The notes beneath the pieces were generated by a model that saw only the letters and a list, made by a program, of their open reading frames with translations, was not told where the DNA came from and searched no databases. A stretch of DNA of 35,334 nt, taken from positions 1 to 35,334 of IMG/VR virus record IMGVR_UViG_3300046482_000239, one strand, 5' to 3'. This document shows positions 1-33,104 of the stretch, piece by piece. The position numbers were made by a program, and so were the translations under genes. Position 1 is the first letter of the stretch. Every line of letters starts with the position of its first letter. Source of the DNA: a virus.

Positions 1-108
1 GCGATGCACATCGTCATCTTCACCGGCAAGGATGCCGCGTCGATGCGGCGTGACCTCGCGGAGTTTATCGGCCCCGACACGGTGGTGCATGAAGAGCCGA
101 AAAGGTGA
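1..108 (+). CDS. C-terminal fragment of small protein paralogous to the one at 17.3 kb
   Basis: The 5' end is cut by the window edge; 35 residues remain before a TGA. The visible part contains IVIFTGKDAASMR and ends HEEPKR. It matches the C-terminus of the 81-residue protein encoded at 17297-17542 at about 25 of 34 positions, so the two are clear paralogs (seen directly). Function unknown. It is on the plus strand, facing the end of the tail operon, just as its paralog faces the structural operon. This suggests that another cluster of small plus-strand genes lies to the left of the window. Confidence 0.85.
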   Translation, partial: AMHIVIFTGKDAASMRRDLAEFIGPDTVVHEEPKR

Positions 109-174
109 CGGGCGCCGCCGATGACCGGCGCTAGCCGCTGGCGGTGAGGCTGCAATCCTCGTCCCGCGCCGCAG
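109..174. other. convergent intergenic gap
   Basis: Sixty-six GC-rich bases separate a rightward gene from the end of the leftward tail operon. I expected a bidirectional terminator here but see no clean stem followed by a T-run on either strand. Confidence 0.4.
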
Positions 175-9784: not shown

Positions 9785-10480
9785 CTACGGCGCGTCGCCC
9801 GCGGTCCACGCGGAGGCATTCCAGTAGGCGTGCGAGCCATCGCCGAGCACGACATGCTGGCCGGTCGTCCAGGCCGTCGCCGGACTCGCCGTGAGGCCCG
9901 TCATCGCCGCCAGATTCGCCGGGGCCGTGGCCCCCGCCGGGGTGAAATGGCCCGGCGTGCCCGCGATGGTCGTCGCGCCCGTGGCCGCCACGCTGCCCGG
10001 CAGATCGGCGCTGTAGCTTTCCGTCGGCATAATCGCCGCCGTGAAATTCAGCAGGCCGGTCGTGCCCATGGCGCCGATTTGGAAGCGCGACACGTAGCCG
10101 CGCACCGGCAGCGTCGTGCCGCCGGCGTCCGGCAGCTGGATCGCAAAGTTGCGGATCGCGCGGTTCCGCTGCAGATAAATCAAGCCGCCCGGCGGGCCCG
10201 GTGAGTTGTTCTGCGACTCGTGATCGAGGCGCAGGTTGCCCACGAGCTCGAAGGCCCCCGAATCGCGGATGCCCGGCATGTGCTCGTGATGGGCATCAGG
10301 CGAGCGCAGATGCGTCCGCACGACGTCCTCGGTATCGATCGAGCCGGGCGTGATCGTCGTGATTTCCGCGACGGCCACGGTCGCCTCCGTGTCGGCATCG
10401 CCGTCCACGGCCACGAGCAGCTGCGTGCCGTAGCCGATCATCCCTTCGGAGGGATAGTAGGTATCGGTGACATCAGCCAT
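9785..10480 (-). CDS. major tail tube protein
   Basis: 231 residues, preceded by AAGGAG at a good distance. The N-terminal ~165 residues are beta-rich and resemble tail tube proteins (GYGTQLLVAVDGDADTEA, ELVGNLRLDHESQNN). The C-terminal ~50 residues, after an Ala/Thr/Gly-rich linker, read LTASPATAWTTGQHVVLGDG followed by SHAYWNASAWTAGDAP, a small surface-exposed module that recurs on tails of actinophage-type siphoviruses (from memory). It sits between the tail completion genes and the chaperones, the usual place. Likely the most expressed tail protein. Confidence 0.85.
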   Translation of the reverse strand: MADVTDTYYPSEGMIGYGTQLLVAVDGDADTEATVAVAEITTITPGSIDTEDVVRTHLRSPDAHHEHMPGIRDSGAFELVGNLRLDHESQNNSPGPPGGLIYLQRNRAIRNFAIQLPDAGGTTLPVRGYVSRFQIGAMGTTGLLNFTAAIMPTESYSADLPGSVAATGATTIAGTPGHFTPAGATAPANLAAMTGLTASPATAWTTGQHVVLGDGSHAYWNASAWTAGDAP

Positions 10481-14198: not shown

Positions 14199-16070
14199 TC
14201 ACCCCGCATAGGTCGCCACGGTGTACTGCACGCAGCCCGCGCGGGCCTTCTTCCAGTTGATGTACCGCTCGGCACGCAACCCGACGAGGTTGTTCTGCCA
14301 GAACGATGTCAGGATCGTGGTGGCGATGGTGGGATTGTCCGGCGCCGAGTCCATCTGCACCGAGGCTTCCGTCGAGACATCAATACTGACGCCGCCATCG
14401 TCCGCATAGAGGATCGCGTCCGGCACCAGGGCGATCACGTTGGTGCCGGCGGTCTGCGATGTCACCACCGTGAGGCCCAGAACCGTGCCCCCGCTCACGC
14501 CCATCGTGGGAAACATCAGTTGTCCGAGCGGATTGAGCGCCGAGCTCAGCGCGAGCGCGTTGGCTTCCGACATGATCAGCACGACTTGCGAGACCGGGAG
14601 GCCAGCCGCGACGATCGCATTGAGCAGCGCGATCACGTCCGTCCGCGCATTGGCCGGCGTGGTGCCGGCCGTGGTGATCGGCGTCACGCCATTGGTAATG
14701 GAGCCCGGCGAGACGTTCGCCACGGCCGCCTTCGTCGGATCGACGAACTCGTTATCGAGAAACGCCGCCATCCCTGTGATCATGTCGCGTCGGATCACGT
14801 CCTCCGCGTTCGGCGACGAGAAGCGCGCCAGCTCCTGGGTGATCGCGATAATGCCCGCGGCCTTCGAGAACGTCAGCGTGATGGTCCCGAACTGCAGCTT
14901 GCCCACCGGCTTCGGCGCCCCCTGGCCGACCCACTGGTACGTGCCGCCGCCCGTCTGCGACGGGACCGAGATATTGAACGGCACCTTCCGCAGGCCTGGC
15001 ACCTTGCCCAAGATCGTCGCCGGTCGCAAGAGGTCGAGAAACTCTGCGGCCATCGGCTGGAGTTGCGCCAAGGGACCGGCCCACGTGGCATCGGTCGTCG
15101 TCCCTGGCGCAACGGCGGCTTTCAGCACCAGCTCGACTTCCGGCGTGGAATCCTTCCACTGCTTGGCAAACTCGAGCGCCCGCATCGAATCACCGCGGCC
15201 ATAGGCCACGGCCTGGCAGTAGCGAAGAAACGCGGTGCCCTTCGGCAGGAGCGATTTCACCTGCACGACCGGTATGCCGCCGCGCAGCTCGGCGGCCTTC
15301 GTGATCGTCGTCGCCACGATCGGCGTCGCGGTCGCGGCCTGCGTCAGCTCGAGGGCCTTCAACCGCTCGACATGCTTATCGAGATTGGCGACATCGACGG
15401 CGAGGGCATCGTACTCCTCGGTCTGCTTGCCATCGAGCGTCACGGCCTCTTTCGCCGCGGCGTCCATGAGCTCCGTCATGCGCGTGGCTTTTGTGTTGCG
15501 GGTGGTGGTAAACGCCGTGATTTGTTCCGCGGTCGTCATGGGACGGCCTTTCGCGAACAGGCCCGAGATGCCGGGCGGGTACAGGCCGGACGCGGCCAGG
15601 TCAAGCGACTTGATCGTGTGAATCGTCGCGGAGGCATTCGCCGGAATCGTCACCAGCGACAGTTCGAGCACTTCCGTTTTCAGGAAGCGGAAGCCGCCTG
15701 TCACTTGGTCGAAACTCTCTTCGAGCGCGCGAAAGCCAATCGACACGCCGGCCACGAGGCCTGACGTGACCGACTGCCAGGCCTCTTCGACGCGATCGCG
15801 CAGCGCGCCGGCTTCAGCAATCGTCGGCAGCTCCGCTTCGAAGTCGAGGCCGTCCTTCGTCGGTTTCGAAAAGCGCACCATCCCAACCGGCTTTTGCGGG
15901 TTGTGATAGAGCAGCAGCGGGACGGGATTCTTGAACTGAATCCCAAGCGGATCGATCACGTCGCCCATGCGATCCGGGTCGGGCGTGGAGGCCACCCCGC
16001 GAATCACGCGGGCCGGTGCCTCAGCGGCTTTGATGTGAAGGAGGCTATACGCCCGATGCTGCGTCGCCAT
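14199..16070 (-). CDS. fused prohead protease and major capsid protein (HK97 type)
   Basis: 623 residues from ATG (MATQHRAYSL); an upstream in-frame GTG would add four residues. Residues ~10-155 form the U35 prohead protease: RVIRGVASTPDPDRMGDVI, a catalytic-type His in LLLYHN (56), Ser in GVSIGF (110) and acidic residues in KTEVLELSLVTIPA. Residues ~178-260 are a helical delta/scaffold region, and the rest is an HK97-fold capsid protein (GLRKVPFNISVPSQTGGGTY, ending SFWQNNLVGLRAERYINW). Fusion of protease and capsid in one chain is known in several siphoviruses; the protease should remove itself and the scaffold during maturation. The cleavage site is not identifiable by eye. Confidence 0.93.
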   Translation of the reverse strand: MATQHRAYSLLHIKAAEAPARVIRGVASTPDPDRMGDVIDPLGIQFKNPVPLLLYHNPQKPVGMVRFSKPTKDGLDFEAELPTIAEAGALRDRVEEAWQSVTSGLVAGVSIGFRALEESFDQVTGGFRFLKTEVLELSLVTIPANASATIHTIKSLDLAASGLYPPGISGLFAKGRPMTTAEQITAFTTTRNTKATRMTELMDAAAKEAVTLDGKQTEEYDALAVDVANLDKHVERLKALELTQAATATPIVATTITKAAELRGGIPVVQVKSLLPKGTAFLRYCQAVAYGRGDSMRALEFAKQWKDSTPEVELVLKAAVAPGTTTDATWAGPLAQLQPMAAEFLDLLRPATILGKVPGLRKVPFNISVPSQTGGGTYQWVGQGAPKPVGKLQFGTITLTFSKAAGIIAITQELARFSSPNAEDVIRRDMITGMAAFLDNEFVDPTKAAVANVSPGSITNGVTPITTAGTTPANARTDVIALLNAIVAAGLPVSQVVLIMSEANALALSSALNPLGQLMFPTMGVSGGTVLGLTVVTSQTAGTNVIALVPDAILYADDGGVSIDVSTEASVQMDSAPDNPTIATTILTSFWQNNLVGLRAERYINWKKARAGCVQYTVATYAG

Positions 16071-16099
16071 CGCTGGCGCCACAGCGTACGGGCGGGGTC

Positions 16100-16300
16100 T
16101 TATTTTGTACGACTAAAGAGGCGCCGGTCCTGATAATCCGATACGTATTCGTTCAGGGCTTCGCGCAGCACACCGGATACATTCGTCCGGTTATCCTGGG
16201 CCACGCGTCGGAGTTCCAAGCGTTGCGCGGGTGTGACACGCAACTGAATACGTGCCGAGACCGGTTCGCTTTCGAGCGTCGGACGGCCGCGGCGCATCAT
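16100..16300 (-). CDS. ribbon-helix-helix (CopG/Arc-like) DNA-binding protein
   Basis: 66 residues starting MMRRGRPTLESEP, with GGAG five bases upstream. SARIQLRVTPAQRLELRRVA followed by NVSGVLREALNEYV is a classic ribbon-helix-helix layout: a short beta strand with alternating polar residues (RIQLRV), then two helices. Such 60-70 residue proteins act as dimeric repressors or antitoxins. A perfect 10-bp palindrome lies just upstream of the start and could be its operator. No toxin partner is adjacent. A truncated relative is found directly after terL, showing that this gene's 5' end has been duplicated. It ends 30 bases before the capsid gene start. Confidence 0.85.
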   Translation of the reverse strand: MMRRGRPTLESEPVSARIQLRVTPAQRLELRRVAQDNRTNVSGVLREALNEYVSDYQDRRLFSRTK

Positions 16301-16337
16301 GGTGCTCCGAATACTAGTATCTGATACGCCGGCGCTG
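16274..16337. repeat. imperfect direct repeat, left copy (terL 3' end / RHH 5' end)
   Basis: On the minus strand this segment reads SAPAYQILVFGAP then stop, overlapping MMRRGRPTLE of the ribbon-helix-helix gene. The same arrangement occurs at 19127-19190, where APAYQMLVFGA is the true C-terminus of the terminase. Roughly 80 percent of bases match by eye. The two copies bracket the accessory cassette. Confidence 0.85.
16311..16320. promoter_or_regulatory. candidate operator palindrome ATACTAGTAT
   Basis: A perfect 10-bp palindrome lies 10 bases upstream of the ribbon-helix-helix start. TAGTAT within it could be the -10 of that gene, so repressor binding would block its own promoter. The duplicated copy near 19167 reads ATACTAGCAT, losing the symmetry. 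Autoregulation is inference. Confidence 0.4.
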
Positions 16338-16364
16338 ATTTCGTGCCGGACTGTGCAAGCTTTG

Positions 16365-16393
16365 TCTTGCACACCCAACCGGACGATGGGATG
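16365..16393 (+). promoter_or_regulatory. possible promoter of the plus-strand cassette operon
   Basis: TTGCAC, a 17-base spacer and GATGAT lie about 135 bases upstream of the first plus-strand gene. Agreement with sigma-70 boxes is moderate. The gene-free stretch between the ribbon-helix-helix start and the first plus gene (about 225 bases) must hold divergent promoters; this is the best candidate I see. Confidence 0.3.
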
Positions 16394-16496
16394 ATAGTTG
16401 GAGCCGTGCCGAGTTGGACCCTCGCCACGGCTCCTGACCGCGTCAACCGTCTATGCCCGGTGGACGAGGCTACTGTCAAGTGTAGCCCCCCCGACC

Positions 16497-16521
16497 GGGC
16501 CTTTTTGAAAGCAGAAGGCCC
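16497..16521 (+). promoter_or_regulatory. hairpin covering the ribosome binding region of the first cassette gene
   Basis: GGGCCTT and AAGGCCC form a 7-bp stem with an 11-base loop, ending 5 bases before the ATG. The AAGG that would serve as Shine-Dalgarno is in the 3' arm, so folding could limit translation. It could instead be an attenuator, but there is no T-run after the stem. Confidence 0.4.
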
Positions 16522-16526
16522 ATCTC

Positions 16527-16910
16527 ATGAACTTTACGCATGCGCTGACCAGCGCACTCCCGGTCCTGCTCCTTTTCCTGAGCGCTCTTCCCGCCCAAGC
16601 CAAAGCCCCGAAGGTCAAGGTGGAGGACATGCTGCACATGCGCGTGTATATCACCGCCGCGCCACCGGCTACCTCACCTGAAGGCTTCATCGACGGTGAC
16701 GACAAGTGGGTCCGTGATTCGCACCATCGGGACGGTCTCGGCGAGCAGCACATTCCGGTAGACCGTGGACCAGTGGCTGGCGGAATACCACCGGATGAAA
16801 ACGGAGGCGGCGTTGTGACCACCATTCAACTGGTGCTCGATGCGCTCCGGCGCGGTGAAGTGACGCTGGCGGAGGCACGCGCGGCGGTCCACGCGTGGTT
16901 GCGGTCGTGA
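16527..16910 (+). CDS. small secreted protein with signal peptide; C-terminal part may be a separate gene
   Basis: 127 residues as one frame. Residues 1-26 are a clear signal peptide: MNFTHALTSALPVLLLFLSA followed by LPAQAKA with an AQA/AKA-type cleavage site. The mature part up to residue ~75 (VKVEDMLHMRVYITAAPP, then DGDDKWVRDSH) has good codon use; the stretch 78-96 does not. A GTG at 16815 in the same frame starts a compact 31-residue helical peptide (TTIQLVLDALRRGEVTLAEA...). It overlaps by GTGA the end of a 17-residue frame at 16765-16818. The real arrangement could be secreted protein plus one or two micro-proteins. Function unknown. Confidence 0.55.
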   Translation: MNFTHALTSALPVLLLFLSALPAQAKAPKVKVEDMLHMRVYITAAPPATSPEGFIDGDDKWVRDSHHRDGLGEQHIPVDRGPVAGGIPPDENGGGVVTTIQLVLDALRRGEVTLAEARAAVHAWLRS

Positions 16911-17113
16911 ACCGGCTGTCGGATCATCCCGCGCTGGCCGCGCACGCGCATCCGTGCTGGCGCAAGACGAAGCACCGGAGCCGGGGCAAGGCGGAGGCGG
17001 CGCTCCGCGCAATGCGACGACGGACGGAGAAGCTGCGGGCCAGTGAGACGTTGGAGGTCTATCGGTATCACTACTGCTACTGGTGGCATGTGGGGCACGG
17101 GAGGGCAGGGTGA
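16907..17113 (+). CDS. small zinc-ribbon-like protein
   Basis: 68 residues from a GTG that overlaps the previous stop (GTGA). It is rich in Arg and Lys, with a helix AEAALRAMRRRTEKLR and a C-terminal YRYHYCYWWHVGHGR. This resembles the widespread small phage proteins of the pattern C...K..Y.s...A..al..r.......YrC..C..wHlG, although here the usual CxxC is degraded to HYCY. Function unknown; nucleic acid binding is a guess. TGATG coupling joins it to the next gene. Confidence 0.7.
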   Translation: MNRLSDHPALAAHAHPCWRKTKHRSRGKAEAALRAMRRRTEKLRASETLEVYRYHYCYWWHVGHGRAG

Positions 17114-17322
17114 TGGCGACGGTTCCCTTTGCGACGCTGTGTGACCGGTGCGGCCGGCGCTCGGAGGAATACACCTCGTGGCCGTCGTGCCGCGACTGCC
17201 TCGACGACATCTGCCCGGACTGCGACGTGGCGTCCGAGCGGACCGAGGACGAGGCGCACTCGACGCAGTGTCGGGGGTGCGCGGCGGAGGAGGCACATGG
17301 TCAAGTTCACGGCATCCGGTAA
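17113..17322 (+). CDS. cysteine-rich zinc-binding protein
   Basis: 69 residues with four CxxC knuckles: CDRC (10-13), CRDC (26-29), CPDC (34-37) and CRGC (53-56). Two structural zincs, or a cross-brace like a small RING or B-box arrangement, are possible. It starts MATVPFATLCDRCG through a TGATG overlap and its end overlaps the next gene by 26 bases. No catalytic residues are visible. Such proteins act in protein-protein or nucleic acid contacts; the target here is unknown. Confidence 0.7.
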   Translation: MATVPFATLCDRCGRRSEEYTSWPSCRDCLDDICPDCDVASERTEDEAHSTQCRGCAAEEAHGQVHGIR

Positions 17323-17542
17323 CGGCATCACGGTCGTCGGCATCGGGCTGGAAGAGGAGAATCTCCGGCGGATGCAGGCCGGGCAGCCGGTGCGGGTCCG
17401 CCTCAGTGACCTTGGGTTCACGGGTGCGGCCGGGAAGATGCAGATTGTGATTTTCACCGGCAAGGACGCGGCCTCGATGCGGGAGGATCTTGCGCCGTGG
17501 ATCGGGCCGGAGACGGTCATCCACGAGGAGCACGAACAATAA
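17297..17542 (+). CDS. hypothetical protein, paralog of the fragment at the left window edge
   Basis: 81 residues, with GGAGG five bases before the ATG. MVKFTASGNGITVVGIGLEE opens a beta-rich N-terminus, followed by NLRRMQAGQPVRVRLSDLGF and GKMQIVIFTGKDAASMREDL. The predicted alternation beta-alpha-beta-beta-alpha suggests a small compact domain. The duplicated relative at the window start shows that this gene exists twice in the genome. No known function; I do not recognise a named family. Confidence 0.8.
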   Translation: MVKFTASGNGITVVGIGLEEENLRRMQAGQPVRVRLSDLGFTGAAGKMQIVIFTGKDAASMREDLAPWIGPETVIHEEHEQ

Positions 17543-17763
17543 TGCCGCTCTTTTCAGAGATGCCGCTCTTTTGCTGCATTTGCGGGGTGACCTTTCACGC
17601 GGGCGTGAACCGTCAGTGGCACGGGTTCGATGAGGCGGTCTGCGGCGCCGGCTGCTACTACGAGAAGGAGTGGCGCAAGACGCTCTCGACGCTGGGGAAG
17701 GCATACTATCCGGACCCGCGTCAGTTCGACGCCCACGGGTATCCTGTGAAAGGGTCGTCCTGA
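17542..17763 (+). CDS. small zinc-finger-like protein
   Basis: 73 residues, coupled by TAATG. It opens with a direct repeat, MPLFSEMPLFCCICG, and contains CxxCG (11-15), CGAGC (near 35) and EKEWRKTLSTLGKAYYPDPR. The pattern MPLFSEMPLFC.ICG....K.CG..C..E.EWR..LSILGK.Y recurs in small proteins of phages and mobile elements (from memory), with unknown function. The tandem ATGCCGCTCTTTT also offers a second in-frame start six codons in. Confidence 0.75.
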   Translation: MPLFSEMPLFCCICGVTFHAGVNRQWHGFDEAVCGAGCYYEKEWRKTLSTLGKAYYPDPRQFDAHGYPVKGSS

Positions 17764-17883
17764 TGAGTACTGACGCCCCGCTCACGTTGCGCGAGGAGGT
17801 CCGCGCCTTGCGGGGGCGTCGTCCCGCCTCCGGGGCTTGAACACGTCGATCAGGCCCAATCACTCGCGGACTCGGTGCAGTAG
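17763..17883 (+). CDS. tiny protein, probably frameshifted in a G5 tract
   Basis: As written, an ATG (TGATG-coupled) encodes only 25 residues, MSTDAPLTLREEVRALRGRR..., ending at 17840. Removing one G from 17812-17816 gives 39 residues ending GVVPPPGLEHVDQAQSLADS and a TAG just before the lipoprotein gene. The span is 3n+1 bases. The restored frame has better composition and leaves a 9-base gap to the next gene. Function unknown. Confidence 0.5.
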
Positions 17884-17892
17884 GCGCGTCCC

Positions 17893-18057
17893 ATGAGCAC
17901 CAGACTGCTTCTGCGTTTCGTGGCGCTCCTCTCGCTCCCCCTCGCCCTGTCGGGCTGCAACATGGACCTGCTGACCGGGGCGTCGGACATCACCTACCAG
18001 GTCACTGGCAGTTCGGCCACGCGGGTCTCGCTGACCTACGAGACCGAGAGCGTGTAA
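17893..18057 (+). CDS. small lipoprotein, probably truncated
   Basis: 54 residues. A basic start (MSTRLLLR) and hydrophobic core lead to the lipobox LALSGC, with Cys at 22. After cleavage only ~33 residues remain, including DITYQVTGSSATRVSLTYET. That motif matches the first strands of the MmpS-like / Y.V.GsA..v.vTY.n beta domain, which normally continues for another 50-60 residues. The stop comes just where the sequence enters a region of duplicated GGGTACTTT and a G9 tract, so truncation by rearrangement is plausible. Membrane-anchored, outward-facing if made. Confidence 0.7.
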   Translation: MSTRLLLRFVALLSLPLALSGCNMDLLTGASDITYQVTGSSATRVSLTYETESV

Positions 18058-18077
18058 GGGTACTTTTCGGAGAGAGT

Positions 18078-18086
18078 GGGGGGGGG
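18078..18086. repeat. G9 homopolymer beside a GGGTACTTT direct repeat
   Basis: Nine consecutive G lie between two copies of GGGTACTTT (18058-18066 and 18084-18092), just upstream of a membrane protein ATG and in frame with a GTG at 18076. Length change here would alter spacing or frame, so it is a slippage or error hotspot. Confidence 0.6.
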
Positions 18087-18096
18087 TACTTTAGCG

Positions 18097-18399
18097 ATGA
18101 GAGCCCTGCCGCTGATGATCGTCGGCTTTTTCATCCTGCAAGCGCTTGGCGTCAACGACTGGTCTTGGCGCACGTTCTTCTTCGTCTACGTCGGGCTGGA
18201 GATCCTTCAATGTCATCCAATGCGGCGCGGGCGATGGCTCTCTCCTCGGCCGACCGCGGCTCCCACGGCCCGAGCGCGGCGTGAGCCTTCCTCACGGCAT
18301 CAGTTAATCGAACGTCATAGGGGTCGCGTGGTGTGCGGTTCCGCGGAGGACCATAGCCGTCTAGTAACTCGTCGGCATTGGCGATGCCACACGCGATGA
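18097..18399 (+). CDS. small membrane protein with doubtful C-terminus
   Basis: From this ATG the first ~38 residues (MRALPLMIVGFFILQALGV, then NDWSWRTFFFVYVGLEILQ) form one or two hydrophobic segments. The remaining 62 residues are Arg/Ser/His-rich, lie opposite the well-formed minus-strand gene and look non-coding. The original stop was probably lost at a recombination junction near 18210. TACTTT four bases upstream and the G9 tract make the start uncertain. A holin or small inner-membrane role is possible but unsupported. Confidence 0.45.
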   Translation: MRALPLMIVGFFILQALGVNDWSWRTFFFVYVGLEILQCHPMRRGRWLSPRPTAAPTARARREPSSRHQLIERHRGRVVCGSAEDHSRLVTRRHWRCHTR

Positions 18400-18586
18400 T
18401 GATTTCGCCGGGTTCGAACTCATCACAGAGCGTGAGGAAGGCCCGGTCTCCCACCCATGCCCGCGCATGGTCGAGGTCCTGACCGAGGTCACCGAGCCCG
18501 CGCCGGATGTCGTTCCATGCGGCGGCGAGTGCGCGTTCGCGTTCTTCGCTCGTCACGACTGTTCTCCATTGAGCCTCATCGCCCAT
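18152..18586 (-). CDS. hypothetical protein of the minus-strand cassette operon
   Basis: 144 residues; its ATG directly follows the stop of the upstream small membrane gene. The body is helical with good codon use: EERERALAAAWNDIRRGLGD, then ARAWVGDRAFLTLCDEFEPG, a hydrophobic IIIACGIANADELLDG and VRKAHAALG. The last 20 residues (SPARRRRRRTCAKTSR) are anomalous and read into DNA that also codes for the plus-strand membrane protein, so the true C-terminus may be missing. No family recognised. Confidence 0.65.
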   Translation of the reverse strand: MGDEAQWRTVVTSEERERALAAAWNDIRRGLGDLGQDLDHARAWVGDRAFLTLCDEFEPGEIIIACGIANADELLDGYGPPRNRTPRDPYDVRLTDAVRKAHAALGPWEPRSAEERAIARAALDDIEGSPARRRRRRTCAKTSR

Positions 18587-18739
18587 TCAGCCTCGTTCGC
18601 GAATGGCACTCGCCACGTCGCGGAGCGCGGCCTCGAGCGGGTGCGGACCCGACCCGCGCCGCGACTGCCATTCCTTCCAGAGATTGCGGACCGCGAGGAC
18701 GATGTTAATCACGGTCAGCAGCGCGGTCAGTGCGACCAT
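18587..18739 (-). CDS. small single-pass membrane protein
   Basis: 50 residues from an ATG inside the end of the preceding tiny gene. The hydrophobic segment VALTALLTVINIVLAVRNLW at residues 2-21 is followed by basic WQSRRG and an amphipathic helix (LEAALRDVASAIRERG). The layout, one membrane helix with a charged tail, resembles small accessory phage membrane proteins. It forms an overlapping pair with the 31-residue membrane protein upstream, suggesting joint function. Not identified further. Confidence 0.65.
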   Translation of the reverse strand: MVALTALLTVINIVLAVRNLWKEWQSRRGSGPHPLEAALRDVASAIRERG

Positions 18740-18822
18740 TGCCACCAGAGCAGCCACGCCAGCGCCAGCGCCACGGCGACCTGGAGAATCGCCCACGACA
18801 GATTGCTGGTGCGTTCAGCCAT
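18727..18822 (-). CDS. tiny membrane protein (31 aa)
   Basis: The frame begins MAERTSNLSWAILQVAVALA and ends LLWWQWSH. A single Trp-rich transmembrane helix fills almost the whole protein. Its ATG overlaps the zinc-ribbon stop (TGATG) and its end overlaps the start of the next membrane gene by 13 bases, so the three genes are probably translated as a unit. Confidence 0.6.
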   Translation of the reverse strand: MAERTSNLSWAILQVAVALALAWLLWWQWSH

Positions 18823-18992
18823 CACGCGGTCTTCTTCCGCGGGGGCACGGAGGCGTGATTCCAGTAGAGCGATTTACACTTCGCGCACATGGTGATATGC
18901 GGGATGCGGGGACTCCAGGTATGGCCGCAGCGCAGGCATTCCAACCCCTTCACGGTAATCATCTTGAGTTTTGTTTTCGGTGCCGTGCTCAT
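18822..18992 (-). CDS. zinc-ribbon protein
   Basis: 56 residues from ATG (MSTAPKTKLKMITVKGLECL). Two CxxC knuckles, CLRCGHTWSPR and CAKCKSLYW, form a small zinc ribbon. The pattern C..CGH.W.PR.......C.KCKS.YW is common in small regulators and antitoxin-like proteins of bacteria and archaea (family knowledge). It is the first gene of the minus-strand cassette operon and has a palindrome and promoter-like boxes just upstream. It may therefore act as a regulator of the operon, but no partner toxin is recognised. Confidence 0.8.
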   Translation of the reverse strand: MSTAPKTKLKMITVKGLECLRCGHTWSPRIPHITMCAKCKSLYWNHASVPPRKKTA

Positions 18993-19000
18993 GGCGACGG

Positions 19001-19030
19001 AGTTTACTGATATCGGTAAATGACCGTCAA
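19001..19030 (-). promoter_or_regulatory. promoter with overlapping operator palindrome
   Basis: On the minus strand TTGACG, an 18-base spacer and TAAACT lie 8 bases before the zinc-ribbon ATG. Between and over the boxes sits TTTACTGATATCGGTAAA (19003-19020), an 18-bp inverted repeat centred on GATATC with one mismatched pair. This is a textbook layout for repression of a small operon. The binding protein is unknown. Confidence 0.55.
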
Positions 19031-19075
19031 GGGCCTGAGCCAAGTAATGAGCCACAGACGAAACGCGCACTCGGC

Positions 19076-19156
19076 TCACGCAGCCGTGCGCCAGGCCCAT
19101 ACGTGCGTGCTCGCTGGCTCGTTGTCCAGCGTCGGGCGGCCGCGGCGGCGGTTCAT
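19076..19156 (-). pseudogene. truncated ribbon-helix-helix gene remnant
   Basis: The ATG overlaps the terminase stop by ATGA and encodes MNRRRGRPTLDNEPAS, matching MMRRGRPTLESEPVS of the intact gene at 16.3 kb. It then diverges and stops after 26 codons. No beta strand or helices of the DNA-binding fold remain. It marks the old junction between terL and the ribbon-helix-helix gene. Confidence 0.75.
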
Positions 19157-19190
19157 GCCCCGAATACTAGCATTTGATATGCCGGGGCCG
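19127..19190. repeat. imperfect direct repeat, right copy (terL 3' end / RHH 5' end)
   Basis: This copy contains the genuine terminase C-terminus and the 5' end of the truncated ribbon-helix-helix remnant. It matches 16274-16337 at about four of five bases, including CGAATACTAG and GGCCGCGGCG blocks. Confidence 0.85.
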
Positions 19191-20697
19191 GCGGCGGGAC
19201 GCTATGGCGCTCCATCACGTCCACCGCCATCACCAGCGCCACGACACCGTCAATGCGCTCCGTCGAGACCTTCTTGGACGGCTTGATGTTGCCGGCCGCA
19301 TCCGTCTCCACCGAGACATTCGACACGTTCCAGCGCAGCACCGGGTGCCCGTCGTGGCACAACCGCTTCGAGAGAATCGCCGCTTCGAGCGCCTTGGTCG
19401 GGGCTGAGAGCGACGCAAAGCCCTGGCGCATCGGCACGCAGTCGAAGCCGTCCTGCTCCTTGAGCCGCGTCACCAAATCGGTGGCATTCCAGGGGTCGAA
19501 GGCCACCTGGCGCATCTCGTACACGGCGGCCCATTCCTGCAGCGTGCGGCGTACAGCCTCATAGTCAACGGTGTTGCCCGGCGTCGCCGTGACGTAGCCC
19601 TCGCGCGCCCACTGGTCGTAGGGCACGCGGTCCCGCGTCACGCGCTGCGCGATCGTCTCCTTCGGCACGAAGAACTCAGCGCGCACGTCGAAGCCGTCGT
19701 CATTGGGGAACACGGCCACCAGCGCCGTCAGATCTTTCGTCGAGCTCAGGTCCATCCCCACGTAACAGCGGCGTCCTTTGAAGCAGGCCGGCGACAGTGC
19801 CGTCAATTCCACACTCTGGCAGGCATCCCACGCCGCCAACTGGATCCAGCGCGCGGCCTGCTCGGTCCACTGATTGAGATACAGCCGCCGGAACGAATTC
19901 TCCTGCGCGGGAATCTCCTGCGCCCGCGCGCACATGGTCCGCATCTCCTCGAGCGAGCGGAAATCCCCGAGCGCCGGATTCGCCTGCTTCCAGACGCGCT
20001 CGTTCGTCCAGTCGGCTTCGGCGGGAGCCTCAAAGAGAATGGGCAGGAACGTGGGATCGAGCGCCGGCTGCTCGGCCACCTTCTTCGCGTGCTGATAGAG
20101 CTCCCAGAGAATCGAGTGGCGGTCATAGCCGGCCGTGGTAATGGCCATCATCAGCGGTTGGAGCCGTGCGCCCTGGCTCGTCGCGAGCACGTCCCACAGT
20201 TCCCGCGAGGGCGCGGCGTGCAGCTCGTCGTAGATGACTACCGAGGCGTTGAATCCGTGCTTGGAATACGCCTCGGCGCTGATGGCGCGGTAGAAACTTC
20301 CACTGGCCGGATGGACGATGCGCTTCTGCGAATCGACAATCTCACAGACGGCGTCGAGCTCCGGGTCATTGCGAATCATCTGTGCGGCCACGTTGAACAC
20401 GAGCGCCGCCTGGTCTTTGTCCGCGGCCGCCGAATAGACCTCGCCACCGATCTCGCCATCGAAGAGCAGGAAGTACACGGCCAGCGCCGCCGCGAGCTCC
20501 GTCTTGCCATTCTTCCTCGGGAGCATCAACAAACAGGTCCGGTACTGCCGCCGGCCATCCTTCCGCTCGGCAAACAGCTGCTTGACGATACGCCGCTGCC
20601 AGGGGCGCAGGTCGAACGGTTGCTGTGCAAACGGTCCCTTCGTGTGGGTGAGCTGATTCATCAGCCGCACGGCACGCGCCGCCTGCGTTTCCTTCAC
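19153..20697 (-). CDS. terL: terminase large subunit
   Basis: 514 residues from a GTG overlapping the small subunit stop as GTGA (reads MKETQAARAVRLMNQL); a GTG six codons further upstream is also possible. ATPase: Walker A-like LPRKNGKT (59-66), Walker B VVIYDE (153-158). Nuclease: first acidic residue in VGMDLSSTKD (D316), then FDPWNATDLV, and a C-terminal ERIDGVVALVMA near 485-496. This matches the terminase_1 / HK97-like large subunit that pumps DNA into the prohead and cuts it. Full length. The last residues AYQMLVFGA are duplicated at 16.3 kb. Confidence 0.97.
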   Translation of the reverse strand: MKETQAARAVRLMNQLTHTKGPFAQQPFDLRPWQRRIVKQLFAERKDGRRQYRTCLLMLPRKNGKTELAAALAVYFLLFDGEIGGEVYSAAADKDQAALVFNVAAQMIRNDPELDAVCEIVDSQKRIVHPASGSFYRAISAEAYSKHGFNASVVIYDELHAAPSRELWDVLATSQGARLQPLMMAITTAGYDRHSILWELYQHAKKVAEQPALDPTFLPILFEAPAEADWTNERVWKQANPALGDFRSLEEMRTMCARAQEIPAQENSFRRLYLNQWTEQAARWIQLAAWDACQSVELTALSPACFKGRRCYVGMDLSSTKDLTALVAVFPNDDGFDVRAEFFVPKETIAQRVTRDRVPYDQWAREGYVTATPGNTVDYEAVRRTLQEWAAVYEMRQVAFDPWNATDLVTRLKEQDGFDCVPMRQGFASLSAPTKALEAAILSKRLCHDGHPVLRWNVSNVSVETDAAGNIKPSKKVSTERIDGVVALVMAVDVMERHSVPPPAPAYQMLVFGA

Positions 20698-21134
20698 TTC
20701 AGCACTCCGCTCCACTTGCTGACGGGCGGCGCGTCATTGGTCGCGACGCGAATCCGCTGCCGCGAGACCGGATCCATCCCGAACAGCGCGTAGTACTGCC
20801 GGATGATGGAGGCGAATTGCTTCTCGAGCGCCACGCCTTTCATAAATTGGCGGGGCTTCTGCTTCAACGCCGAGGCACGATTCAGCGTGGCTTGCAGTTC
20901 ACACAGCATCGCGAAGGGCCGCACATCGGCCGCGGTCAAGGTCCCCATCTCGATGCAGACCGGGGCTAACTCTTCCCACATCCGGCTGGCACCCTCGCCT
21001 AACTCGGCGGGCTTGACAATCCCCCCCGCCGCGGCCTTCGGTTCATGGAAATTGATCCGGCTCTTCTGAACGCCCCGCAGGATCTTTAGGGCCGTGGATG
21101 TGCGAGGACGGCGGCCGGAATTACGGTTGCCCAT
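20694..21134 (-). CDS. terS: terminase small subunit, P27 family
   Basis: 146 residues. MGNRNSGRRPRTSTALKILR at the start, then EGASRMWEELAPVCIEMGTL and ADVRPFAMLCELQATLNRAS, is the typical P27/HK97-like small terminase pattern: GRP.....LK...G..., then W.e..p.l...G.lt..D...f. The C-terminal LFGMDPVSRQRI also fits. It recognises packaging sites and loads the large subunit. Its start overlaps the upstream homing-endonuclease-like gene by 14 bases. Confidence 0.93.
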   Translation of the reverse strand: MGNRNSGRRPRTSTALKILRGVQKSRINFHEPKAAAGGIVKPAELGEGASRMWEELAPVCIEMGTLTAADVRPFAMLCELQATLNRASALKQKPRQFMKGVALEKQFASIIRQYYALFGMDPVSRQRIRVATNDAPPVSKWSGVLK

Positions 21135-26152: not shown

Positions 26153-27031
26153 TCAAGCGGTCTCGAGGGGCAAACGGAGTACCCGTAATGTCCGCGGCGT
26201 TGGCAACATCGCCGGCGACCCGTGAATAATCGCGGGTCGTGCCCACCGTCGCTGAAACGCCCGCCACTCCGGCGCGGGCCGATACCGCATCTGAGAGGGC
26301 GTCTCCGGCCGCCAGAGCATCGCCATCGGCGTAAATCCGATCGAGAGCATTTGCCGCAATCGCGTCTCCGCGGCGGTCAACGTATCGTGTGGGAATCCGA
26401 TGAGGACGTAACAGCGGAGACGATGGCCGCGCGAGGAGAGACCGGCCGCAAGTAATCGCCGGGCGGCCGATGCCAAAGTCTCGAACGCATCGCCGGGATC
26501 GTAGGCCCAAAACATCACCGGTTGCGGTTTCAGACTCGCCAACAAATCGACTTGATAATCCTGCAACGATAACGCCTCGAGGCCGCCCGTAAACTCGACG
26601 CGCCGCGATTGGCGGCGGAGCATCGCAAAGACGGCCCGGACGTGATCCTCCGGACAGGCGAGGAGGTTATCGTCAAGGATGTTCCAACCGTCTTGAATCG
26701 GGAGCAACCGCGGTTCCGGGTCGCGTTTCCAGACCGAACAAAACCAACACCGACGCGGGCAACCGCGCGACGTAAACACATAGCCCGGTTTGATGTACTT
26801 CCCGACAATGAAATCCTCGCCGCGATCCCCATAGGCGACGCCGCCAACGGTTGTCGGCGCGACATGCCTCCACTGTTCGGCCAATTGTTCGGCGTATGGC
26901 TTGTCGTACGTGAACGTGACGGAGACGTGTACGGCGTCGGCCGTGTCGAGGAGGTCGGGCGGCCCGAATCGGGCGAGCTCATCGCAGGGTGTTGCACGCG
27001 TCCGACGAGGGAATACGCGGATCAGTTTCAT
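26153..27031 (-). CDS. radical SAM protein
   Basis: 292 residues, ATGA-coupled to the upstream gene. The cluster-binding CxxxCxxC is seen in SRGCPRRCWFCSVWKRD (C91, C95, C98). Upstream, DAVHVSVTFTYDK and GGVAYGD recall a B12-binding-like N-terminus, reduced in size. Downstream elements fit a radical SAM barrel: DNLLACPEDHV, RVEFTGGLEAL, FWAYDPGDAFE, CYVLIGFPHDT. Proteins with SRGC.R.C.FC occur in many phages (family knowledge), but substrate and reaction are unknown. Its position between nucleotide and DNA-processing genes suggests DNA or nucleotide modification, which is inference. Confidence 0.9.
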   Translation of the reverse strand: MKLIRVFPRRTRATPCDELARFGPPDLLDTADAVHVSVTFTYDKPYAEQLAEQWRHVAPTTVGGVAYGDRGEDFIVGKYIKPGYVFTSRGCPRRCWFCSVWKRDPEPRLLPIQDGWNILDDNLLACPEDHVRAVFAMLRRQSRRVEFTGGLEALSLQDYQVDLLASLKPQPVMFWAYDPGDAFETLASAARRLLAAGLSSRGHRLRCYVLIGFPHDTLTAAETRLRQMLSIGFTPMAMLWRPETPSQMRYRPAPEWRAFQRRWARPAIIHGSPAMLPTPRTLRVLRLPLETA

Positions 27032-27276
27032 AGGGTCTCGAGGGGGAGGCGGTCCGCGGGGGCGTCGATGGCGGGCGTCGCCTCGGCCGGGAGCTCGTAC
27101 ACCGGGACGGGTTCGAAACACTCCTCGGCCGGGAGAAATCCAACCTCGATATGGAACCCGGCGAGACGCCGGCGACCGTCCGGGCCGAGGGCGACGAGCT
27201 CCGCGCCGTCGATGGCGACGAAGTCATCATCCTCGAGACAGGAGAGCCACCGTTTGAGGCGCCCGGCGTCAATCAT
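27028..27276 (-). CDS. hypothetical small acidic protein
   Basis: 82 residues. LKRWLSCLEDDDFVAIDGAE and GRRRLAGFHIEVGFLP give an opening helix followed by a beta region, a pattern recurring in short phage proteins (W...L.DDD.VAID.G.L.L). It is ATGA-coupled to the radical SAM gene and overlaps the preceding gene by 8 bases. Function unknown. A role with the radical SAM protein is suggested only by tight coupling. Confidence 0.7.
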   Translation of the reverse strand: MIDAGRLKRWLSCLEDDDFVAIDGAELVALGPDGRRRLAGFHIEVGFLPAEECFEPVPVYELPAEATPAIDAPADRLPLETL

Positions 27277-31392: not shown

Positions 31393-32520
31393 TCACGCCT
31401 CCAGCGCCGTCAGCCGGCGCCGGCCCTGGGCGTCGGCCGGGTCCGCCGTGATCCGCCGCAGCTGCCCCGTCGCGGCCTCCAGCTGCAACCCAAGCGGCGT
31501 GTCCCGCGTCCACAGGCGCAGGCCGCCGTCGGTCGTCGCCTTCCACCCGCCGTGGACGCGGATCACCTCGAGAATCCGATCCGTGAGCGGACCGGACACC
31601 GAGGGCGGTGGGGGTGGCGGCGGCGGCGGCCCGGGTGTCGGTGAGGGGTCCGGCGGCTGCGGCTGTTGGGCCGAGGCGCGCTGCGGCATTGAGATGATGT
31701 CGCCCGTCTCTTCATCCACACTGTCGCCGTCCAGCATCGGCGTCGCCTCGGCGTTCGGATCCGCGAGGAGCGCCAGGTCCTGCGGCACCCCGGCTTCCGC
31801 CGCATCGTCGAGGCCGGCCGCCCGCTGAATTTCCACCGACAGCGGCGCCAGTTTCAGCAGTTGCTTCAGGCTGGTTTTCTTCCACATCCACGCTTCATCG
31901 GTGAACCACGGGGAATCGCGCTTGCCGTACTTGAGGCCGGTCTGATACGCCTGCGAGCGGTCGCGAATGGCGTGCACCTGGCGGCGGTTCATGACGTTGA
32001 GGTCGTAGCCGCCATCCTTCAAGCGATAGAACGAATAGGCGTAGACAAGGGCGCCCGGATCGCCGTCACCGTCGAACGGTACGTGTTCGACGCTCGGCGA
32101 GAGGCCGCGGATCTGCTTGAACTGATCGCGCTCGTAGACGGCATCCGCGCCGATCGTCGAGACTTCGCCGGAACGCCGCGCCAGCGTCACCAGGCCGCGG
32201 TAGCCGATCTGGAATTGGCACTCAAGGAGGTTCTTCTTTCGGTTCTCAAATGGAATCAAATACGCCTGCCCGAGAAAGCCATCCGGCACGAGCCCGAGCT
32301 GCGCGCACTGCAGCACCGCGCCGAGAAACGAGATGGACGAGCACTGCGCCAGCTTCGGGTTGCGCTGGACGGCCGTCAGCACCACGCGCATGAAGTACGC
32401 CGGCGTGATGTGCTTCGGTAGGGCGGCGATGATTTCGGCTTGTTTATCTGTCAACAAGTTGCGCACGGTGTAGGTTTTCGCGGGGGCCGCCTCGGTGCGA
32501 GCGGAAATTGCAGTCGTCAT
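31393..32520 (-). CDS. recT: RecT-family single-strand annealing protein with C-terminal extension
   Basis: 375 residues, TGATG-coupled to the upstream gene. Residues ~18-255 are RecT: NLLTDKQAEIIAALPKHITP, FMRVVLTAVQRNPKLAQCSS, GAVLQCAQLGLVPDG (69-81), QFQIGYRGLVTLARRSGEVS and WMWKKTSLKQLLKLAPLS. RecT anneals complementary strands produced by the phage exonuclease. A Pro-rich linker with about ten consecutive prolines (296-306) leads to a 65-residue extra domain (LTDRILEVIRVHGGW, GLRLWTRDTPLGLQLEAATG). I do not recognise it in usual RecT proteins (about 270-330 residues). The extension may bind ssDNA-binding protein or DNA; unproven. Confidence 0.93.
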   Translation of the reverse strand: MTTAISARTEAAPAKTYTVRNLLTDKQAEIIAALPKHITPAYFMRVVLTAVQRNPKLAQCSSISFLGAVLQCAQLGLVPDGFLGQAYLIPFENRKKNLLECQFQIGYRGLVTLARRSGEVSTIGADAVYERDQFKQIRGLSPSVEHVPFDGDGDPGALVYAYSFYRLKDGGYDLNVMNRRQVHAIRDRSQAYQTGLKYGKRDSPWFTDEAWMWKKTSLKQLLKLAPLSVEIQRAAGLDDAAEAGVPQDLALLADPNAEATPMLDGDSVDEETGDIISMPQRASAQQPQPPDPSPTPGPPPPPPPPPSVSGPLTDRILEVIRVHGGWKATTDGGLRLWTRDTPLGLQLEAATGQLRRITADPADAQGRRRLTALEA

Positions 32521-33104
32521 CACGGTGTCTCCAGCCACGTCCTGAACGTGGCACGGTCAGAGGGTGTGGCTTTGCGCCACCAATGTTGAAGATGCTCCAA
32601 TGGGGTTTTTGTCTTGATCCAGCCCGCCTGACGGGTGGCGGTAAAGGCCTTCAACGTGCCGGCGCGAACTTTGGCGGCGAGGTCGGGTCGATCACGCTCG
32701 AGACGAGCCAGACGGTATTCAGTACCACGACCAAAAGAGGTAGCATTGCTATCTCTTTTCTTGTGTCCACGTCCCGGGCCAAATCCCCACTTCGCGAGTC
32801 GCCCAACTTTCTCGGCTAGTTCAGCCGGGACCGGCACTTCCTCGCCGAGCACTTCGATTCCGGCAATCATGGCTTCCACGACATCAGATGGCTGACGTAA
32901 TCGCTGGATACAGAACTCAGTCTCTTCATCGAGGGTCGCCATCGCGAGCGCGTCGTCGATGAAGGTCCGCACCGAGCGCGGATAGCGGCGGGCCGTGGCG
33001 ATCTGCACGTCGACCTCCCCGCGCGTCTGCGCCTCGATGGCGAGGGACGGCCGCACCTCGATCGGGTCGGATTCGATGGGCACTGAATCAGGTCCGGTCG
33101 TCAT
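32520..33104 (-). CDS. mosaic protein: N-terminus of a recombination-associated family joined to a helical DNA-related C-terminus
   Basis: 194 residues. Residues 20-75 (EAQTRGEVDVQIATARRYPR, then FIDDALAMATLDEETEFCI) match the start of a phage family that normally continues YALPR.GK.IEGPS.R.AEI (from memory). That continuation is absent. From ~85 the sequence is VPVPAELAEKVGRLAKWGFG, a basic segment and RGTEYRLARLERDRPDLAAK, then KTPLEHLQHWWRKATPSDRA. This C-terminus resembles phage and mobile-element proteins of the R..DRPD.....AG... type. The junction suggests fusion or internal deletion. TGATG coupling to recT suggests a shared recombination role. Confidence 0.7.
   Translation of the reverse strand: MTTGPDSVPIESDPIEVRPSLAIEAQTRGEVDVQIATARRYPRSVRTFIDDALAMATLDEETEFCIQRLRQPSDVVEAMIAGIEVLGEEVPVPAELAEKVGRLAKWGFGPGRGHKKRDSNATSFGRGTEYRLARLERDRPDLAAKVRAGTLKAFTATRQAGWIKTKTPLEHLQHWWRKATPSDRATFRTWLETP

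Follow-up and report, generated by a model that had tools for sequence, protein, structure and literature searches.

A cargo cassette between the terminase and capsid genes of an uncultivated phage and its flanking junction repeat, a probable scar of recombination between two related phages

Why should a phage carry the end of its terminase gene and the start of the following gene twice, with a set of tiny genes in between? This arrangement was analyzed in the window, i.e. the whole stretch of 35,334 nt of IMG/VR record IMGVR_UViG_3300046482_000239, which stems from an uncultivated, soil-type phage. Phage genomes are mosaic and their joints are seldom readable; the scar described here seems to tell two parents apart. 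Furthermore, the empty site, other cargo and other scars are all available for comparison within this uncultivated phage group. When bacterial genomes were searched with terL for a possible host, just distant matches (50-56%) in Acidobacteria and Gammaproteobacteria bins were obtained.

All conserved genes of the locus are encoded on the minus strand. The large terminase subunit gene terL (19153..20715, 520 aa) was assigned by phrog_9 (E 1e-171) and the protease-major capsid fusion protein (14199..16082, 627 aa) by phrog_617 (E 4e-136). Between both, a direct repeat of 73 nt comprising the terL end and the start of a ribbon-helix-helix (RHH) gene was found at 16263..16335 and 19116..19188 (minus strand), with 77% identity between the copies and a spacing of 2853 nt. 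In local alignment the copies score 64, whereas no other 400-base stretch of the window exceeds 31 and shuffled sequence reaches 33 at best; the repeat is thus far above chance. The first-pass annotation, which had reported this junction twice at a distance of about 2.85 kb as imperfect direct repeats, was right, and only the length had to be corrected from 64 bp to 73 nt.

The two copies differ in which half is intact, as had also been proposed. In the right copy, established by alignment and the RHH profile, the true terL end reads PAPAYQMLVFGA before its stop codon and is overlapped via ATGA by a decayed RHH start, MNRRRGRPTLDNEPASTHVWAWRTAA, likewise followed by a stop codon. This remnant of 26 codons (19076..19156, minus strand) matches positions 3-28 of the RHH profile (E 3e-4). 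In the left copy, sequence comparison gives a vestigial terL end, APAYQILVFGAP plus stop codon (16297..16335, minus strand), which contains the GGAG of the RHH gene and is joined to the latter; this RHH gene is intact, encodes 66 aa (16100..16300, minus strand) and is found by its own profile with E 3e-21. An assembly chimaera was considered and rejected, as the left seam was assembled independently in another sample (locus L083, 99.9% over 6035 columns) and a repeat of 77% identity is unlikely to mislead an assembler. For the right seam, no second contig was found in the searched records, which may exclude those nearest to the window.

The product of the intact gene is predicted to belong to the ribbon-helix-helix proteins, with a short strand, two helices and RHH similarity. 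The AlphaFold2 model (pLDDT 85) has predicted helices at residues 24-36 and 41-59, and its top Foldseek matches were RHH proteins with probabilities of up to 0.99 and E-values of 0.3 or weaker; the fold assignment is therefore based on the Foldseek probability together with the sequence profile. The model was made from 60 RHH members, and its two helices are those of an RHH protein; the matches include CopG, PutA, Arc and antitoxins of that fold. A profile search of the PDB returned AvtR, MazE7 and CopG-family proteins.

Viral contigs were searched with two terL and two capsid proteins, which yielded 183 different loci with terL as well as capsid. In 173 of these 183 loci, and thus in nearly all members of the group, terL and the protease-capsid gene are separated by an RHH gene, mostly without cargo; since part of these loci had served to build the RHH profile, this count leans towards finding RHH genes, but the E-values are strong. 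The gap between terL and capsid measures 200-299 bp in 119/183 loci, which is the empty form. The RHH start overlaps the terL stop or lies within 30 nt of it in 148 of the 173 loci, and 137 of the 183 terL genes end in ATGA or GTGA. Cargo was present 5' of the RHH gene in 21 loci (window included) and 3' of it in 24, with three in both lists, i.e. about 42 loci in all. The arrangement without the cassette, for which the first-pass annotation had recommended a search, was accordingly found, as was different cargo at this site. Its suggestion that cargo is inserted at one fixed locus, with the packaging genes on one side and the capsid genes on the other, agrees with the empty arrangement being the rule. 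The cargo families include T5orf172/MUG113 (L021), the C-terminal domain of RNA polymerase alpha (L068), HNH (L129, L199) and a ParE-like toxin (L165). In L161 and L165, the cargo between RHH and capsid consists of the ParE-like toxin and a small gene upstream. The cargo of L041 (1677-2093), which also occurs in L166, resembles the C-terminal domain of the window's tail-tube-like protein (9785-10480) with E 4e-15.

In the window, the cargo is a cassette of about 2.8 kb with about nine tiny genes in two facing groups between the junction copies. In-frame codon scores rank first for every cassette gene except the doubtful last ORF on the plus strand. The minus-strand group (18152-18992) contains three small genes, encoding a 56-aa protein with two CxxC pairs (18822..18992; zinc ribbon), which has a 43% relative in L055, a 69-aa protein with one likely membrane helix (18587..18796) and a 144-aa protein without family match (18152..18586) that is backed by its codon scores. 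The plus-strand group (16527-18057) contains six: a 127-aa protein with a signal-peptide-like N-terminus (16527..16910), a 72-aa protein supported by codon scores (16895..17113), a 69-aa protein with four CxxC pairs (17113..17322), the 81-aa protein p82 (17297..17542), the 73-aa Cys-rich protein Zn73 (17542..17763) and a 54-aa lipoprotein-like protein with the lipobox LSGC (17893..18057). The doubtful seventh ORF (18097..18399, plus strand) has a hydrophobic start, overlaps the facing gene, and its coding frame ranks second. The short stretch 17763-17882 contains stops and is not coding-like according to the codon scores. CxxC pairs are thus clear in two proteins, and another one is rich in Cys; these features, the likely membrane helix, the signal-peptide-like start and the lipobox are in line with the description of the products as tiny zinc, membrane and secreted proteins.

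Pfam, PHROGs and PADLOC gave weak or no matches for the cassette proteins. Zn73 can be regarded as a real gene, because its relative in L254 (85% amino acid identity) differs mostly at third codon positions (22/38 changes); relatives at 85% occur in L254 and L255, records without any terL relative. For p82, 18 of 24 differences to a paralogue at the left end of the window fall on third positions, and a relative is present in G034, whereas neither described phages nor a pattern search of viral contigs yielded any relative. The paralogue (window 1-107, plus strand) is cut by the contig end and hints at a further accessory group, on the opposite strand, past the tail genes. Two further candidates were rejected for the cassette: a structured RNA, as all Rfam matches were sub-threshold, and anti-phage defence cargo, as PADLOC gave no match. 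In the leader of the 127-aa gene (16400-16510, plus strand), a 14-nt inverted repeat and, in addition, GCCCGGT...ACCGGGC followed by TTTTT were noticed by eye; they are possibly an attenuator.

Direct repeats flanking the cargo could point to a mobile element, be it a transposon, an integron-like cassette or a homing endonuclease, that inserted with a target-site duplication, and some relatives do have HNH or T5orf172-type genes at the site. However, family searches of the cassette yielded neither a transposase nor an integrase or endonuclease, and its ends form no terminal inverted repeat (score 18, 95% of the null at 20). We know of no target-site duplication comprising 73 bp of coding sequence, and we regard this origin as very improbable. 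Free-standing homing endonucleases between T4 genes (PMC2988022) are similar in that they, too, have conserved genes as neighbours and that stop and start codons often overlap, but the cassette lacks an endonuclease.

Morons are cargo genes located between phage genes which are adjacent in relatives, and a list of their features has been given (PMC2920897). Like a moron, the cassette lies between genes which are neighbours in relatives, at a fixed site with variable cargo; unlike a moron, it has no base-composition contrast (63.9% GC, flanks 64.5% and 64.4%). As to control signals of its own, one promoter-like site was counted where 0.6 are expected, which is chance level, and five terminator-like sites where 2.0 are expected, so that neither a promoter nor a terminator stands out clearly. 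Thus, of the listed features, site and spread (Zn73 in L254 and L255, p82 in G034) were found and the deviating composition was not. A further difference is the duplicated coding junction at the flanks. The best description of the cassette is moron-like cargo at a hotspot whose junction scar is unusual and informative, and such a hotspot is a variant of an already known kind.

How did the second junction arise? The first-pass annotation had attributed it to the insertion itself. Accordingly, a single event (template switch, staggered ends or tandem duplication) would have copied the terL-RHH junction of one genome with the cargo between the copies, and the vestigial halves would have drifted since. 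In each half, one copy would then be constrained and the other free, for which we estimate a third-position share of about 47% among the differences. In the core of the repeat, however, 10 of 11 differences are at third codon positions, including 5/5 in the terL half (P 1e-4 against a share of 1/3; P 0.003 against one constrained and one drifting copy); over 26 codons, the share is 15/22 (P 0.035). The bias is thus found in both halves, although the numbers are small. In addition, the terL parts differ about as much as between two phages: left and right copy match in 25/30 bases, the left copy and L086 in 24/30, and the right copy and L038 in 24/30. These near-equal matches together with the third-position bias argue for two lineages joined at the seam. 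On the other hand, when all 73 bp are compared, neither copy has a closer match than the other copy (score 64, next 44 and 48), as expected for a duplication within one genome; if two parents were involved, they would have been rather closely related, or relatives are sampled too sparsely. For neither of the presumed parents was a genome found. Taken together, the divergence provides good but not decisive sequence-based evidence for two lineages. A duplication made by the insertion fits less well, and we consider it rather unlikely, though it deserves to be kept in mind.

We thus favour the reading that the cassette is moron-type cargo at a hotspot and that the flanking repeat is probably the scar of recombination between two related phages; the two parents, the order of events, the role of RecT and the source of the cargo are inferred. 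Parent one would have contributed terL together with the start of its RHH gene and possibly the adjoining cargo. The intact RHH gene and the capsid gene would stem from parent two, with the joint to the cargo about 12 codons before the terL end of that parent. Joining a cargo-bearing phage to the terL-end-RHH-capsid stretch of a relative would duplicate the overlap in one step, and the RHH gene of parent one, now redundant, would have decayed to 26 codons. Since cargo placed between overlapping genes either damages one gene or duplicates the overlap, and since terL in most cases runs into RHH via ATGA and contains the ribosome site of the RHH gene at its end, only joints which keep a second junction copy leave both genes working, and for that reason such scars survive. 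This suggests the rule that, between overlapping genes, junction-duplicating insertions alone leave both genes whole.

The diverged junctions may have been joined by RecT annealing, as the phage encodes a RecT-family single-strand annealing protein (31393..32538, minus strand; PF03837, E 2e-42). Lambda Red recombines DNA of 22% divergence efficiently, and illegitimate and homeologous events were judged to contribute to mosaicism to a similar extent (PMC2327257). The window resembles such homeologous Red-type recombination in that a block is bounded by a stretch of about 77% identity and a RecT-type annealing protein is present; it differs in that two copies of the diverged stretch persist and enclose the cargo.

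Most other cargo-bearing loci lack a junction repeat; a duplicated terL-end junction was found in three other loci, representing two events. L041 and L166 share the same cargo, and in both the terL end recurs as a 28-nt repeat ahead of the RHH gene (score 44, null 26-27); in L235, the terL end is repeated at the end of the first cargo gene (score 38, null 21). The repeat scores of L178, L127 and L146 were barely over the null, hence, these loci were left out of the scar count. Junction repeats that are short and nearly identical around other cargo, as in L041, L166 and L235, speak for duplication by a single insertion. A different picture is given by L021, where two complete RHH genes surround the T5orf172/MUG113 cargo gene. 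For the first, the closest counterparts belong to phages that combine this terL type with W-type capsids; for the second, they belong to phages having L045-type capsids. The capsid of L021 itself is distant from all three capsids compared. Under recombination between two phages, L021 may represent an earlier stage with both RHH genes still whole.

Between L041 and L166, the identity is 92% for the cargo, 87% for terL, 72% for RHH and 85% for the capsid, and near the vestigial junction it drops sharply, from about 90% to about 70%, as would be the case if RHH-capsid modules were later exchanged by means of the scar. A clade test rejected common descent of the two loci only for the capsid (p 0.019) and not for terL (p 0.116). 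A clean proof of cargo movement was dropped, as the trees are only suggestive.

Alternatively, the repeat may have been kept as a control element, i.e. as ribosome site and start of the RHH gene and perhaps as RHH operator, keeping RHH expressed behind the cargo. The GGAG in the terL end adjoins the RHH start, and the vestige in L041 and L166 holds a five-codon ORF ending on the RHH start, both as this explanation would have it. Against it, a 10-bp palindrome of the left copy is kept neither in the right copy nor in relatives, for which reason an RHH operator in the repeat was rejected, and promoter-like sites do not exceed chance. Control as the cause of the repeat appears improbable to us; it is compatible with recombination of two parents, however, and both can act together.

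An array of about eight tiny genes, including the Zn73 relative, was observed in L254 (4563-5991) and also in L255. The genes are joined by a direct repeat of 22-30 bp, GTGACGGGCGCCGCCGATGACCGCCGCTGA, which runs from the end of each gene into the start of the following one; seven exact copies and one with two mismatches are present, in a single cluster of the contig. Start-associated sequences of Cluster K mycobacteriophages (PMC3203893) are similar in that short repeats accompany the gene starts of an accessory region, but they are 13-bp sites just before start codons, whereas the repeats here include a stop codon as well as the start of the gene that follows. It is conceivable, if doubtful, that duplicated stop-start junctions are a general way for phages with tightly overlapping genes to gain and trade small genes: a cargo gene would travel between junction copies, RecT-type annealing would move or remove it, and the eight-copy array of L254 would be an extreme form.

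The window itself has one copy of a junction element nearly identical to that of L254, at the stop of the p82 paralogue (105-135, plus strand), and the L254-type element was also detected in L263 (1287-1307), a phage without terL relative. Finally, a radical SAM-like protein with a weak Pfam match is encoded among the non-structural genes of the window (26153-27121, minus strand).
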